NCBI RefSeq assembly: GCF_000626715.1
Contig: NZ_AQRA01000001.1
Location: 248,001 to 312,000, forward strand
DNA: 64,000 bases
Source: Aquimarina atlantica
Lineage (GTDB): Bacteria > Bacteroidota > Bacteroidia > Flavobacteriales > Flavobacteriaceae
Direction: 5' to 3'
Shown here piece by piece: positions 10,421 to 31,559 of this stretch. A model generated the notes under the pieces. It saw nothing but the letters and a program-made list of their open reading frames with translations. It had not been told where the DNA came from and searched no databases. Position 1 is the stretch's first letter; the number at the start of each line of letters is the position of its first letter. Position numbers and translations under genes: made by a program.

Positions 10421-10900
10421 TTAAGATTTTTTCATGTGATATGAACTAAAGGTACCATCGGTATAAAAAATAACAATTCTATCTATTTTGTTTTCGGTAG
10501 AAATTACTTGAGAAATTTTTTCTAGAGGAGGAGTATTTGGGGCAACCGTTTTTTCTTCTAGTGATGACTGCGAAAATAAATCTTGTTTAGAAACTGTAAT
10601 TGGAGGAGGTGTAGATTGAGAAATAGTAGAAGTGTCTGGCAAAGGATTTTTTTTCTCTACAGGTACATTCTCAGATTTAGGAAATGTTCCTTTTCCATAT
10701 AACAACCATTGTAAATCTACATCAGTATATGCATCAACAATTTTCATTACAAAATCAAGACTAGGTTTGTTTCGTCCGCTAAGAATATGAGAAATAGAAG
10801 AACGACCTACACCCATGTAATCTGCAAAGGATGAGGCAGATACAGCATGATAATCCATTATTTTTTGGATTCTTTTACCAAAATCTTTATTGTTTACCAT
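10421..10900 (-). CDS. XRE-family helix-turn-helix transcriptional regulator
   Basis: DNA-binding regulator of 159 residues. An XRE/Cro-type helix-turn-helix covers about residues 7-65 (FADYMGVGRSSISHILSGRN is the recognition region), followed by a Pro/Ser/Thr-rich linker and a short C-terminal segment (KIDRIVIFYTDGTFSSYHMK). There is no protease or ligand-binding domain. It is divergent from the M14 peptidase-like gene, and the region between them is packed with GTTTAC-N4-GTAAAC palindromes. One overlaps this gene's own start codon (10892-10907) and one overlaps its candidate -7 box TACCTTTG (10932-10939, minus). Autorepression and control of the neighbour are therefore likely (inference). 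Confidence 0.9.
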   Translation of the reverse strand: MVNNKDFGKRIQKIMDYHAVSASSFADYMGVGRSSISHILSGRNKPSLDFVMKIVDAYTDVDLQWLLYGKGTFPKSENVPVEKKNPLPDTSTISQSTPPPITVSKQDLFSQSSLEEKTVAPNTPPLEKISQVISTENKIDRIVIFYTDGTFSSYHMKKS

Positions 10901-11217
10901 TGTAAACGAGTTTAAGAGTAAATATTGGTTACAAAGGTAAACAAATTTGTTGAAAACACTGGTTTACAATTGTAAACTGAGGATTATTGGTGTTAAACTT
11001 TTAATTTACATTAACATGATTAAATATCTGATTAATAATATATTGATATTGTGAATATGTGATAAATGTTTTTTTTGTTAATAACTAAAATACATTTGGA
11101 AACACGGTAAGTAGTAGTGTTTAATAATGTAAACAAATAAGTATATTTGTTATGTTTACAAATGTAAATAAAGTATTGTTACACTTGTAAACATCACTCC
11201 AGTTTACAAGTGTAAAT
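10892..11217. promoter_or_regulatory. array of about seven palindromic operator-like sites
   Basis: The divergent intergenic region holds repeated copies of GTTTAC-N4-GTAAAC. Perfect copies: 10892-10907 and 10962-10977. One mismatch: 10927-10942 (GGTTAC left arm), 11119-11134 (GTTTAA), 11154-11169 and 11202-11217 (GTAAAT right arm). Two mismatches: 11177-11192 (TGTTAC). Starts are 35 bp apart for the first three and again for the fourth and fifth. Three sites sit at the XRE promoter and start, four lead towards the M14 gene. A TATATTTG box (11142-11149, plus) lies between sites four and five. The XRE protein next door is the obvious candidate binder. Nothing else was seen in 10978-11118, a plain AT-rich stretch. 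Confidence 0.82.
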
Positions 11218-11283
11218 ATTAATCTGATTTGTTATGAATCTTCAGTAAACTATAGTAATTTCGTAGTCTTATAAAACAAATTA

Positions 11284-12441
11284 ATGAACACACATACGTT
11301 GCAAAATTGGTTCAATACCTATAAAGAAGTTTCCTTATTTGGGCGTTATATTACCCCGGATCATATTTCTCCTTTACTAGATCTTTTATCTTTAAAAACC
11401 GAAATTGAACAGATAGGACTTTCTGAAGATAATGAGCCTATACATCTTATTAAACTAGGTAACGGATCTAAAAAGCTTTTGTTTTGGTCGCAAATGCATG
11501 GTAACGAAAGCACAACTACAAAGGCTGTATTTGACCTATTAAACTTCGTTACAGACGTTTCAAATGACTTGGCAAAAACCATTTTAAAAGAGTGTACAAT
11601 ATATATAATACCTATTTTAAGTCCTGACGGAGCAAAGGCGTATACCAGGCTTAATTTTAACCAGGTAGATCTTAATAGAGATGCACAACAAAAAACTCAA
11701 AAGGAGAGTATAGTATTTGGTAAATTAATAGAACGTATTCGACCGGATTTTGCCTTTAATCTTCATGGGCAACGTACTATTTTTAGTGCAGGAGAAACTA
11801 AACATCCTGCTACTGTGTCTTTTTTATCTCCTGCAAGTGATTTAGAACGATCGATAACTCCAGGCCGTAAAATAGCTATGGAAATCATTGCTAAAATGAA
11901 TACGGTACTCCAACAATTTATTCCGAATCAGGTAGGGCGGTATGATGATGGTTTTAATTTAAATTGTGTGGGAGATACTTTGGCAAATATGGGGGTGCCT
12001 ACAATATTATTTGAAGCCGGGCACTATTCAAATGATTATGATCGGGAAATAACACGAGAATATATATTTTATTCTCTTATAACTTCAATAGAATATATAG
12101 CAACTACTCAAATTACAGGAGATAGGTATAAAGATTATTTTTCAATACCAGAAAACGGAAAATGCTTTTATGATATTATTATAAGAGATGTGATGTTAAA
12201 GGAGAAAAACGTAGATATAGCAGTTCAATACAGTGAAGAACTAGTCAAAAATAGTGTGAAATTTATACCAAAAATTGTTAAAATTGGCAATCTTCAAAAA
12301 TTTTACGGTCATAGAGAAATTATTGGCAAAAAAAGGACAATATATAACGAAAACGTTACAGTAGAGATAGTTCCAGAGGCTAAGCTGTTAAAATTTCACC
12401 TAAACTCTGAATTATTCTTAATAGAATCAACAAAAAGTTAA
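11284..12441 (+). CDS. M14-family zinc carboxypeptidase-like protein
   Basis: Predicted metallo-carboxypeptidase or amidase of the M14 (zinc carboxypeptidase/succinylglutamate desuccinylase) fold, 385 residues. The zinc ligands are His72 and Glu75 in MHGNE and His161 in NLHGQR; Glu244 in FEAGHY fits the catalytic glutamate. There is no signal peptide, so it should act in the cytoplasm. The substrate is unknown; peptides, cell-wall fragments or amidated amino acids are possible. The C-terminal ~120 residues lie beyond the catalytic core and have no motif I recognise. It is divergent from the XRE regulator and preceded by four of the palindromic sites. Confidence 0.87.
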   Translation: MNTHTLQNWFNTYKEVSLFGRYITPDHISPLLDLLSLKTEIEQIGLSEDNEPIHLIKLGNGSKKLLFWSQMHGNESTTTKAVFDLLNFVTDVSNDLAKTILKECTIYIIPILSPDGAKAYTRLNFNQVDLNRDAQQKTQKESIVFGKLIERIRPDFAFNLHGQRTIFSAGETKHPATVSFLSPASDLERSITPGRKIAMEIIAKMNTVLQQFIPNQVGRYDDGFNLNCVGDTLANMGVPTILFEAGHYSNDYDREITREYIFYSLITSIEYIATTQITGDRYKDYFSIPENGKCFYDIIIRDVMLKEKNVDIAVQYSEELVKNSVKFIPKIVKIGNLQKFYGHREIIGKKRTIYNENVTVEIVPEAKLLKFHLNSELFLIESTKS

Positions 12442-12517: not shown

Positions 12518-12997
12518 ATGGCAAAGTTTAAATTAGACGAAGTTGACCACCAAATTCTGGACATGCTGATCGAGAATACTCGTACACCATTTACAGATAT
12601 CGCAAAAAAATTGTTGATTTCTGCAGGTACAGTACACGTGCGAGTTAAAAAAATGGAAGAAGCAGGTATTATTGAAGGATCTTCATTAACATTAGACTAT
12701 AAGAAATTGGGATATTCATTTATAGCATATGTTGGGATTTATCTTCAAAATACTTCGCAAACCAAATTCGTCTTAGAAAGGATTAATGAAATACCATTTG
12801 TAACGGTTGCTCACATAACAACAGGAAAGTTTAATATTTTCTGTAAAGTAAGAGCTAAAGACACGAATCATGCTAAGGAGATTATTTTTAAACTAGATGA
12901 TATTGATGGCGTATATCGTACCGAAACTATGATTTCATTAGAAGAAAGTATTAATGATAAGAAACGATTAATGCATTCTATTTTTCAGGATTTATAA
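12518..12997 (+). CDS. Lrp/AsnC-family transcriptional regulator
   Basis: 159-residue regulator of the leucine-responsive family. It has an N-terminal winged helix (LDEVDHQILDMLIENTRTPF through SAGTVHVRVKKMEEAGII) and a C-terminal RAM/effector domain (about 68-145; GKFNIFCKVRAKDTNHAKE). Such proteins form dimers or octamers and respond to amino acids or related small molecules. It lies 76 bp after the M14 gene in the same direction and may share its transcript, though a TAAATTTG box at 12473-12480 could give it its own promoter. A strong hairpin terminator follows at 13022-13056. Confidence 0.94.
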   Translation: MAKFKLDEVDHQILDMLIENTRTPFTDIAKKLLISAGTVHVRVKKMEEAGIIEGSSLTLDYKKLGYSFIAYVGIYLQNTSQTKFVLERINEIPFVTVAHITTGKFNIFCKVRAKDTNHAKEIIFKLDDIDGVYRTETMISLEESINDKKRLMHSIFQDL

Positions 12998-29144: not shown

Positions 29145-31559
29145 TTACCTTAATTTTGGGAAATTAGCTGGATCTGCTTCATTTATAATTTCATACACTT
29201 TTTCGAAAATATCTTCTGTAGAAGGTTTACTAAAGTAATCTCCATCAGTTCCAAAAGCAGGTCTATGTGGTTGTGCACTTAGAGTCTGTGGCTTACTATC
29301 CAGGTATTGATACACGTTTTGTTCATCAATCAATTTGTGTAAAATATATCCAGTCGCACCACCAGGTACATCTTCATCAATAATTAATAATCGGTTTGTT
29401 TTTGCAACACTTTTAACGATATCATGATTTAGATCAAAAGGAAGTAAAGACTGTACATCAATTACTTCGGCATTAATCCCTACGGTTAATAGTTCTTTTG
29501 CTGCTTGCTCAACTAATCGTAATGTAGAACCATATGATACCAAGGTGATATCTGTTCCTTCTTTAACAGTTTCAACAACACCAATTGGTGTTCTTATCTC
29601 AGATAAATTAGAAGGCATCTTTTCTTTTAAGCGGTATCCATTAAGGCATTCTACAACCAAAGCAGGTTCATCACTATCCATTAGTGTATTATAAAAACCT
29701 GCAGCTTTAGTCATATTTCGAGGTACAAGAATATGAATACCTCTTAGTAAATGAATAAGGCCACCCATTTGAGAACCAGAATGCCATATTCCTTCTAGTC
29801 TGTGTCCTCGAGTTCTTATAATTAGAGGAGCTTTTTGTTTTGCAAATGTTCTGTATCGTAATGTAGCAAGATCATCACTTAATCCTTGTACACAATATAA
29901 GATATAATCTAAATATTGAATTTCTGCAATCGGTCTAAGGCCTCGCATAGCCATCCCAATTCCTTGCCCTATTATAGTAGCTTCTCTAATACCGGTATCA
30001 GATACTCTGGTTTCTCCAAACTTTTCCTGAAGCCCTTCAAGTCCTTGATTTACATCACCAATTTTACCACTATCCTCTCCAAAAATAAGAGCTTCGGGAA
30101 TTCTGTTAAATAATTTTTCGAAATTATCTCTTAAAATAACTCTACCATCAACTTGCAGTGCATTGGTATCGTATTGAGCTTTTACTTCATCAATATAAAT
30201 AGCGCTAGAATCATTTTCATTATATAAATGGCTGCTGTATTTTGGTTGAATACGAGCAATGTAATTATTTATCCATTCCTGAAGTGTAGATTTTTCTGCA
30301 AAGTTTTCTTTTGTAATATATTGTAATGTTTTTCTTGTAGCTTCAAGAATATCTTTGCGTATTGGTTCTTCTTTTGAAGCCAAAATATTAACCAGAGGAG
30401 AAATGAAGTTTTTATTAGCACTTTTGCTTTCTACAGATTTAAGAATTTCTAATGCTTCTTTTTGTTCTGACTTAATTTCTGACAGATACGCATTCCAGGC
30501 TTCGGTTTTACCTTTTCTTACTTCTTTTTTAGCAGCTTTTTCAAAATCCAGAAGTTCTTCCGCTGTTGCGATATTATGCTCAATGATCCATTCTTTAAAC
30601 TTTTTGTTGCAATCATATTCACGTTCCCAATTTAAACGCTCTTCGCTTTTGTATCTTTCGTGAGACCCAGAAGTAGAGTGTCCTTGCGGTTGCGTTAATT
30701 CTTTTACATGAATAATAACAGGAATATGTTTTTCGCGTGCTAATTTTTCAGCTTTTTCATAAGTGTCCATTAGGGCAGGGTAGTCCCAACCATTAACTTT
30801 TAAGATTTCATAGCCTTCGTGATTTTCGTCACGTCTAAAACCTTCGAGAATTAAAGAAATATCTTCTTTGGTTGTTTGGTGCTTTGCATGAACAGAGATA
30901 CCGTATTCATCATCCCAAACACTAACCACCATAGGTACCTGTAGCACTCCTCCTGCATTAATAGTCTCCCAAAATAAACCTTCACTGGTACTTGCATTAC
31001 CAATAGTTCCCCAAGCTACTTCATTTCCTTTACTTGAGAAATTAGAATGATTAGAAATGCCTTTTTCGTTACGATACACCTTTGATGCCTGGGCAAGACC
31101 TAGTAACCTGGGCATTTGCCCTGCGGTAGGAGAAATATCTGCACTCGAGTTCTTTTGTTGCACCAGATTTTTCCATGTGCCATCTTCATTTAGACTGTGA
31201 GTAGCAAAATGACCTCCCATTTGTCTTCCCGCCGCAAAAGGTTCTTTGTTGATATCAGTATGAGCGTATAATCCCGCAAAGAATTGTTCTACTGTATATT
31301 GATCAATAGCCATCATAAATGTTTGATCTCTATAGTACCCTGATCTAAAATCACCATTGCGAAAAACTCTGGCCATTGCAAGTTGAGGCAACTCTTTTCC
31401 TCCTCCAAAAATTCCAAACTTAGATTTACCTGTCAATACTTCTCGTCTTCCCAGTAAACTACATTCTCTACTAATTAAAGCTATTTTGTAGTCTCTAAGT
31501 ATTTGATCTCTATATTCTTCGAATGAAATATTAGATGAAGTAATGGTTTCAGGCTGCAT
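29145..31559 (-). CDS. 2-oxoacid dehydrogenase E1, fused alpha and beta subunits
   Basis: Thiamine-diphosphate decarboxylase/dehydrogenase component of a 2-oxoacid (branched-chain type) dehydrogenase complex. The 804 residues join an alpha part (GGGKELPQLAMARVF, GTIGNASTSEGLFWETIN with ThDP-binding features, GHSTSGSHERY) to a beta part starting near 460 (ALIFGEDSGKIGDVNQGLEG, LDYILYCVQGLSDDLATL, RTRGHRLEGIWHSG). The alpha-beta fusion is common in Bacteroidota. It is monocistronic here with no E2 or E3 nearby. A good promoter (31583-31613, minus) lies upstream. Confidence 0.92.
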   Translation of the reverse strand: MQPETITSSNISFEEYRDQILRDYKIALISRECSLLGRREVLTGKSKFGIFGGGKELPQLAMARVFRNGDFRSGYYRDQTFMMAIDQYTVEQFFAGLYAHTDINKEPFAAGRQMGGHFATHSLNEDGTWKNLVQQKNSSADISPTAGQMPRLLGLAQASKVYRNEKGISNHSNFSSKGNEVAWGTIGNASTSEGLFWETINAGGVLQVPMVVSVWDDEYGISVHAKHQTTKEDISLILEGFRRDENHEGYEILKVNGWDYPALMDTYEKAEKLAREKHIPVIIHVKELTQPQGHSTSGSHERYKSEERLNWEREYDCNKKFKEWIIEHNIATAEELLDFEKAAKKEVRKGKTEAWNAYLSEIKSEQKEALEILKSVESKSANKNFISPLVNILASKEEPIRKDILEATRKTLQYITKENFAEKSTLQEWINNYIARIQPKYSSHLYNENDSSAIYIDEVKAQYDTNALQVDGRVILRDNFEKLFNRIPEALIFGEDSGKIGDVNQGLEGLQEKFGETRVSDTGIREATIIGQGIGMAMRGLRPIAEIQYLDYILYCVQGLSDDLATLRYRTFAKQKAPLIIRTRGHRLEGIWHSGSQMGGLIHLLRGIHILVPRNMTKAAGFYNTLMDSDEPALVVECLNGYRLKEKMPSNLSEIRTPIGVVETVKEGTDITLVSYGSTLRLVEQAAKELLTVGINAEVIDVQSLLPFDLNHDIVKSVAKTNRLLIIDEDVPGGATGYILHKLIDEQNVYQYLDSKPQTLSAQPHRPAFGTDGDYFSKPSTEDIFEKVYEIINEADPANFPKLR

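Follow-up and report, generated by a model that had tools for sequence, protein, structure and literature searches.

A seven-palindrome array between an XRE regulator gene and a divergent M14 carboxypeptidase gene in Flavobacteriaceae: comparative evidence for a probable autoregulatory repression loop

The intergenic region between an XRE regulator gene (xre) and a divergent M14 peptidase gene of Aquimarina atlantica carries seven copies of the palindrome GTTTAC-N4-GTAAAC, and comparison with other Flavobacteriaceae makes it probable, on sequence grounds, that they serve an autoregulated XRE repressor, which bridges two operator clusters in a phased loop and represses both xre and M14. XRE dimers would bind the seven palindromes, which are regarded here as predicted operators, and would bridge the X cluster, situated at the regulator's own promoter and start codon, and the M cluster, which leads towards M14; the helically phased DNA loop formed in this way would repress xre together with the divergent M14 gene. 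XRE as the binding protein, looping of the DNA and repression as the effect are all three points that we infer. The features of the locus are listed below with their positions in the window, i.e., the whole analysed stretch of 64,000 nucleotides.

10421 to 10900, minus strand: xre, 159-aa regulator with N-terminal HTH (Phage_CI_repr/HTH_3), low-confidence linker and short conserved C-terminal hairpin
10892 to 10907: predicted operator X1, 0 mismatches; spans the xre start codon, right arm encodes Val2-Asn3
10927 to 10942: predicted operator X2, one mismatch; contains the predicted xre -7 box
10932 to 10939, minus strand: predicted xre -7 box TACCTTTG; consensus TAHHTTTG (PMC6847099)
10962 to 10977: predicted operator X3, perfect
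10978 to 11118: linker between X and M clusters; poorly conserved sequence, larger length changes mostly near one helix turn
11119 to 11134: predicted operator M3, one mismatch
11154 to 11169: predicted operator M2, one mismatch
11177 to 11192: predicted operator M1, two mismatches; corresponds in position to the M14 -7 box operator of other genera
11202 to 11217: predicted operator M0, one mismatch; an additional site found in Aquimarina
11256 to 11263, plus strand: predicted M14 -7 box TAATTTCG, which differs from TAHHTTTG at one position and lies downstream of the array
11284 to 12441, plus strand: M14-family metallocarboxypeptidase, 385 aa (PF00246 Peptidase_M14)
12518 to 12997, plus strand: Lrp/AsnC-type regulator following M14; considered not to belong to the switch

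The array (10892-11217) is intergenic, with xre and the M14 gene on either side, and comprises two perfect copies, four with one mismatch and one with two. The original prediction had named seven copies, two of them perfect, at these very positions, which the site scan confirmed, and its 35-bp spacing repeated three times is borne out by the measured steps between successive sites (35, 35, 157, 35, 23 and 25 bp). When the 392-bp stretch 10892-11283 was dinucleotide-shuffled 5000 times, the mean was 0.009 sites at up to one mismatch (maximum 1, observed 6) and 0.09 sites at up to two mismatches (maximum 2, observed 7). A scan of the whole genome with up to one mismatch retrieved 24 sites, six in the array and 18 elsewhere; as the reversed control pattern likewise gave 18, copies outside the array are at chance level, and the only two perfect palindromes of the genome are both located in the array. 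A looser pattern of two sites 10-40 bp apart matched four times in 5.69 Mb, each time at the array, with one match for the control. Shuffles, genome scan and two-site pattern together rule out a chance or low-complexity origin, and a genome-wide regulon of such arrays is likewise ruled out, sites elsewhere being at control level. Random spread of the motif through intergenic DNA, which would have spoken against the original prediction, was accordingly not encountered in the genome scan. Contrary to its remark that no further copy of the motif was seen in the window, a one-mismatch copy was found at 29225-29240; this is the only other such copy in the window, lies within an 804-codon reading frame and was judged a chance occurrence.

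Among the sampled relatives the array goes together with xre. When 506 relatives were ranked by XRE similarity, the top 80 (among them Aquimarina, Flavobacterium and Kordia) all had M14 adjacent to xre and divergent from it. Lrp comes after M14 in 79 of these loci, and the one in which it was not seen, L055, is cut short by a contig edge. Each of the 80 has, in the 700 bp preceding xre, three to eight sites (up to two mismatches) whose positions agree between loci, near -7, -42, -77 and beyond -200 from xre; X3 is missing at this threshold in many of them. A family sample of 199 Flavobacteriaceae genomes, about one per genus, showed an XRE match (1e-10) in 185 and an M14 match (1e-40) in 188, some of which may be a longer paralogue. 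For those 96 further genera, out of the 185, in which xre and M14 were listed on one contig, at least one site was present between the genes in 95, at least two in 93 and at least three in 83; the genus without sites (G366) has xre and M14 about 870 bp apart. The comparison of related intergenic regions proposed with the original prediction thus recovered at least three sites at the locus in all 80 close relatives and in 83 of 96 further genera. Altogether, the 96 stretches (57 kb) hold 369 sites versus 65 for the reversed control, a figure which overlap with the operators themselves may have raised; because the control also scores there, a single site means little. A strict two-site pattern matched in 42 of the 199 family genomes (reversed control: 1), and 41 of these matches lie upstream of xre and/or M14, 38 placed by comparison of coordinates with the xre and M14 matches and three by further inspection, with G292 as the exception; none occurred in the 14 family genomes without an XRE match. 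Most XRE-bearing genomes have no strict match, so that the pattern shows exclusiveness and not presence. Outside the family the pair is retained in part: of 20 short stretches from other families, 10 show a divergent M14 match, and zero to five sites were counted across the 20, most clearly in L121 with five. In L118, from another family of the order, a long stretch without called frame precedes M14, and the gene beside XRE resembles proline dehydrogenase.

The operators coincide with promoter elements. The flavobacterial -7 box TAHHTTTG is located at -12 to -5 according to passages of PMC6847099 and PMC9723704, from which an xre transcription start at about 10927 with a 27-nt leader is predicted. 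A perfect xre -7 box lies inside X2 in 78 of 80 loci and in 61 of 89 further genera, seven of the 96 having been left out for want of a recognised xre start. All 34 non-Aquimarina loci have a perfect box on the M14 strand inside an M operator, as a rule 25-30 bp ahead of the start codon, and the M14 box is inside an operator in 74 of the 89 further genera, 81 of which possess X1. In Aquimarina some M operator contains a perfect box in 22 of 46 loci, and a conserved box, mostly TAATTTCG, is situated 21-30 bp before the M14 start, behind the extra operator M0; L044, labelled Aquimarina, shows the layout of the other genera. The predicted M14 promoter is hence downstream of the array in Aquimarina and inside the array in other genera. 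The Aquimarina M14 start is about 80 bp further from xre than that of Flavobacterium (window 11218-11283, L001-L045), and a conserved block of about 30 bp there contains a further -7 box. From M0 to the box 53-54 bp were counted in most Aquimarina, 62-63 bp in a few and 59 bp in L042, and the two main distances are again about one turn apart. As regards X1, its Asn3 codon is AAC in 75 of 78 loci, as against 173 of the 648 Asn codons elsewhere in xre, a bias which indicates that the DNA itself is kept at this site and not only the protein. In two of the 80 loci (L032 and L048, at 3001) the usual xre start codon within X1 reads ATC instead of ATG.

Natural losses and rearrangements link the operators to xre. 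Ten evaluable genomes, G048 and G181 (genus g2) and representatives of eight other genera, possess M14 and have no XRE match at E 1e-10 (1e-3 for two); they are 82-100% complete, and L170 and L171, which end at contig edges, were left out of this set. Within 500 bp upstream of M14 none of the ten displays a single operator. The order TerC-HYP-M14-Lrp is kept in five and HYP-M14-Lrp in two more, Lrp still adjoins M14 in all ten, and a perfect TAHHTTTG box lies near the M14 start in seven. In one of the loci without XRE match, L132, such a box is located within a stretch resembling a decayed operator; in the same locus a decayed remnant of the xre C-terminal tail, intact copies of which occur in relatives, lies beside M14 (2751-2810). 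In G072 (locus L108) a single contig carries both genes, but about 30 kb separate them; six sites lie at xre and none at M14, which, read by eye, appears to follow closely on another open frame. Operators therefore follow xre, as they are absent from M14 loci without xre and have stayed with xre in G072. Both operator clusters of L108 are situated at xre, next to which no divergent gene was seen, and the target of its M cluster may be xre itself. In the seven genomes that have an XRE match and none for M14, 4, 1, 1, 1, 1, 2 and 0 sites were counted nearby, from which it follows that the array shrinks without M14 as well, except in L156; the G072 array is likewise kept, M14 there having only moved. 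The corresponding loci L156-L162 come from small genomes (1.2-2.3 Mb) with a mostly shrunken array, and Lrp is adjacent in six of the seven. The idea of an autoregulated switch with cooperative sites, put forward in the original prediction, is supported by this comparison, namely by the co-occurrence of array and xre, the loss of operators where xre is gone, the box in X2 of nearly all close relatives and the restriction of the array to this one locus of its own genome.

The distance between the clusters bears on the loop. From the operator with the xre box to that with the M14 box it amounts, in 66 genera, to 213 bp (1), 223-226 bp (4), 235-239 bp (37) and 246-249 bp (19), with 267, 279, 283, 328 and 408 bp once each in the remaining genera and empty gaps between the main classes; in the loci L046-L080 it is 257 bp in 23 and 248 bp in five, while 225, 235, 236, 237, 246 and 260 bp occur once each. 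By weight matrix, the X2-M2 distance was measurable in 160 of 202 loci, with 42 (31 among the 96 genera, 11 among the 106 other loci) below the score thresholds. Taking one locus per genus (65 of 96), 211-215 bp (37), 222-225 bp (20) and 233-235 bp (3) were obtained, besides single values of 199, 201, 208, 243 and 255 bp; Aquimarina (43 of 46 loci) displays 213-216 bp (5), 223-227 bp (30) and 234-235 bp (8), which is 2-3 bp more than in other genera. The period fits best over a broad range, 10.5-10.75 bp, with R = 0.82 for the 64 genera within 180-250 bp (one of the 65 values lies outside this range). Shared descent inflates this R; when each of the 22 distinct values is counted once, the peak is weak (R = 0.40 at 11-11.5 bp), and values of 208 and 219 bp are off the grid.

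Because relatives share distances, changes were counted by parsimony on a tree of 95 loci, tree and counts being approximate. Of the 33 changes, 16 comprise 1-2 bp, three 3-8 bp, 12 9-13 bp, one 14 bp and one 21 bp; hence 12 of the 17 inferred changes of at least 3 bp measure 9-13 bp, and the classes are about 10.75 bp apart. This distribution of sizes differs from a uniform one (p = 0.0012, or 0.0027 with the period free between 9.5 and 12) and from a model of decreasing sizes (p 1e-5 or less). Two control gaps on the same tree yielded seven versus three and three versus three changes of 3-8 versus 9-13 bp, so that 12 to three changes of 9-13 versus 3-8 bp at X2-M2 face six to ten in the pooled controls (Fisher p = 0.029). 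The separation of the clusters is thus constrained modulo the helical turn, as expected of a loop, with a moderate margin over the control gaps, and the assumption of a linker without phase lock was dropped once the distances were measured. Since the length from M14 stop to Lrp is also rather constant, an unchanging length is of little weight by itself. Across 22 loci of the 257-bp class, almost all from Flavobacterium, identity amounts to 52% in the linker and to 88-100% in the operators; judged from these alignments, linker length is kept and its sequence much less so.

These distances also form the ground on which the loop has to be weighed against its nearest competitor, according to which the same XRE and operators are at work without a loop, the clusters act independently and the periodicity is an accident of descent and few indels. 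We consider this unlikely. In its favour, X-M distances are shared by descent (233 bp recurs in 23 loci, all but one labelled Flavobacterium), nearly half of all changes are indels of 1-2 bp, which shows that these are tolerated, and the Fisher test against the control gaps gives no more than the p value stated above. Against it, changes of one turn recur on the tree and outnumber those of 3-8 bp fourfold, the distance classes recur within Aquimarina, and in G072 the M cluster stayed at xre with M14 far off, as expected if it serves xre. Somewhat less probable, yet a live rival, is that XRE is a repressor of xre and, in Aquimarina at any rate, an activator of M14, acting there from sites upstream of a weak promoter. 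The Aquimarina M14 box lies about 40 bp past the last operator, which weakens simple repression there; under the preferred reading, M14 would be controlled in this genus via the loop or via contact with RNA polymerase, and not by an operator that covers the box. All four M sites are upstream of the conserved, mostly mismatched box, at about -58, -83, -106 and -141 from the predicted M14 start, and the spread of M0-to-box distances given above fits activation as well. Against it, the M14 box lies within an operator in every non-Aquimarina locus of the close-relative set, which suits repression, and most xre-less genomes keep M14 with a perfect box, as would be expected of a gene that needs no activator.

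A quite different proposal, that the array is bound by another regulator such as the downstream Lrp/AsnC protein, draws on the nearly constant adjacency of Lrp and M14 in the close relatives and on the fact that many Lrp proteins bind arrays of sites. But the ten xre-less M14 loci keep Lrp and have no operators, and in G072 M14 and Lrp stand together without sites, which are found with xre; Lrp as the array-binding protein is ruled out by these loci, and another binder is given hardly any credence. The boldest reading, a family-wide, non-phage core switch of lambda-like kind, in which XRE closes a single phased loop over both promoters and governs a cytosolic carboxypeptidase in an all-or-none manner, with M14 or its peptide products throwing the switch through action on the conserved C-terminal tail of XRE, is regarded as improbable; as part of the same reading, such a switch would be the carboxypeptidase counterpart of ImmR/ImmA. 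The retention of M14 in genomes that lack xre and the intact tail of the M14-less L156 both argue against it, while the weak tail of the M14-less L157 speaks in its favour (two of the seven M14-less loci inspected). The phased repression loop with XRE at both clusters remains the preferred explanation.

The two proteins were characterised with regard to domains and fold. XRE matches PF07022 (E = 2e-9) and PF01381 (E = 1.6e-8), both above cut-off, and in the structure model the HTH covers residues 4-68, followed by low confidence at 78-131 and a short hairpin of good confidence at 141-155. HTH and the tail motif IVIFYxDGTFxSY are conserved and the linker is not; the recognition-helix region is nearly invariant, like the operator. 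Bridging of dimers might be brought about by the C-terminal hairpin, a candidate for this role. An S24-like C-terminal domain was not detected in XRE, for which Pfam at E 0.001 gives HTH families only; its sequence has no match in the PDB at E 0.01, a fold search matched HTH with none at E <= 0.001, and NCBIfam contains no family above cut-off for XRE or for M14. In M14, the zinc ligands HxxE...H, the catalytic Glu and the substrate-binding Asn-Arg are all present, H72, E75, N131-R132, H161 and E244 (residue numbers of this M14 protein) being invariant in 21 aligned sequences. Its model has a pLDDT of 82 and is weak near residues 164-169 and 224-231, and its best fold matches include the bacterial cytosolic-carboxypeptidase-like enzymes PDB 4b6z, 3l2n, 3k2k and 4a37 (14-19% identity, TM about 0.5; sequence match to 3l2n E = 7.5e-8). 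M14 may be called cytosolic in keeping with the original prediction and with these relatives. The ten M14 genes of xre-less genomes all retain the HGNE, DLNRD and NLH motifs, and eight of them (not L168 and L177) the last motif, from which a role of M14 without XRE can be deduced. A second, longer M14 gene (open frame of about 470-500 aa) was observed at L172-L176 and L178, on the same contig and 29-102 kb from the first in G257, G301, G339, G341 and G369 and on another contig in G243, with zero to one operator-like sites near these longer copies.

Among known systems the arrangement resembles that of lambda/434-type CI and Cro at OR/OL. Lambda OR/OL is a multi-operator architecture with long-range bridging, and shared traits are the HTH of the Phage_CI_repr family, with weak fold matches to 434 Cro (E 0.007) and P22 c2 (E 0.03), several palindromes at divergent promoters, one of them over the regulator's own, and the proposed long-range bridging. 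In contrast to lambda, xre is a chromosomal near-core gene with a carboxypeptidase as target, and none of the neighbours scanned (TerC, Lrp, PEP carboxylase) is a phage gene; unlike CI, XRE as modelled has no folded C-terminal domain, only the low-confidence linker and a 15-residue hairpin. With ImmR/ImmA and DdrO/IrrE the locus shares an XRE regulator beside a zinc peptidase gene, as well as weak HTH fold matches to DdrO and ImmR, whereas here the genes are divergent and M14 is kept in genomes without xre. ImmA/IrrE peptidases (M78) are not of the M14 carboxypeptidase kind, and membership in these systems is ruled out by the PF00246 match and the carboxypeptidase fold matches of the neighbouring gene. 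CopY belongs to a protein family other than XRE. The operator core of CopR/CopY, TACANNTGTA (PMC7253601), is contained in many copies in the array; identity with the CopY operator is ruled out, only the core being similar and no copper gene occurring among the scanned neighbours. BioL of Elizabethkingia was discarded too, being a MocR-type regulator (PMC12915131). The lac, ara and gal loops share the phase-dependent distance between operators and differ in protein family from XRE, and the phasing is read here from evolution and not from a reporter; in-vivo helical repeats fitted for lac loops, 11.08-11.60 bp in passages of PMC1762422, are near the 10.5-10.75 bp of X2-M2.

CI-like repressors, multi-operator promoters and loops are already known as such. 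Literature searches yielded no report of this XRE, its operator or this M14, and the main text of a 2025 survey of XRE palindromes (PMC12565409) contains no Bacteroid, Flavobacter, GTTTAC or TTTACA at word starts. Nor did the searches yield a family-wide, single-locus, non-phage example of a loop with an evolutionary record of its phasing.

While DNA loops are mostly known from reporter tests, the xre-M14 pair, which occurs in more than 90% of the Flavobacteriaceae genomes sampled, has a single operator array of its own, for which natural deletions serve as controls and a record of helical phasing is readable over dozens of genera. The array is thus a ready system for looping tests within a phylum that has a distinct promoter code; of such tests Aquimarina, with its predicted promoter outside the array, offers a second version, and at the same time an entry to the role of a widespread carboxypeptidase.
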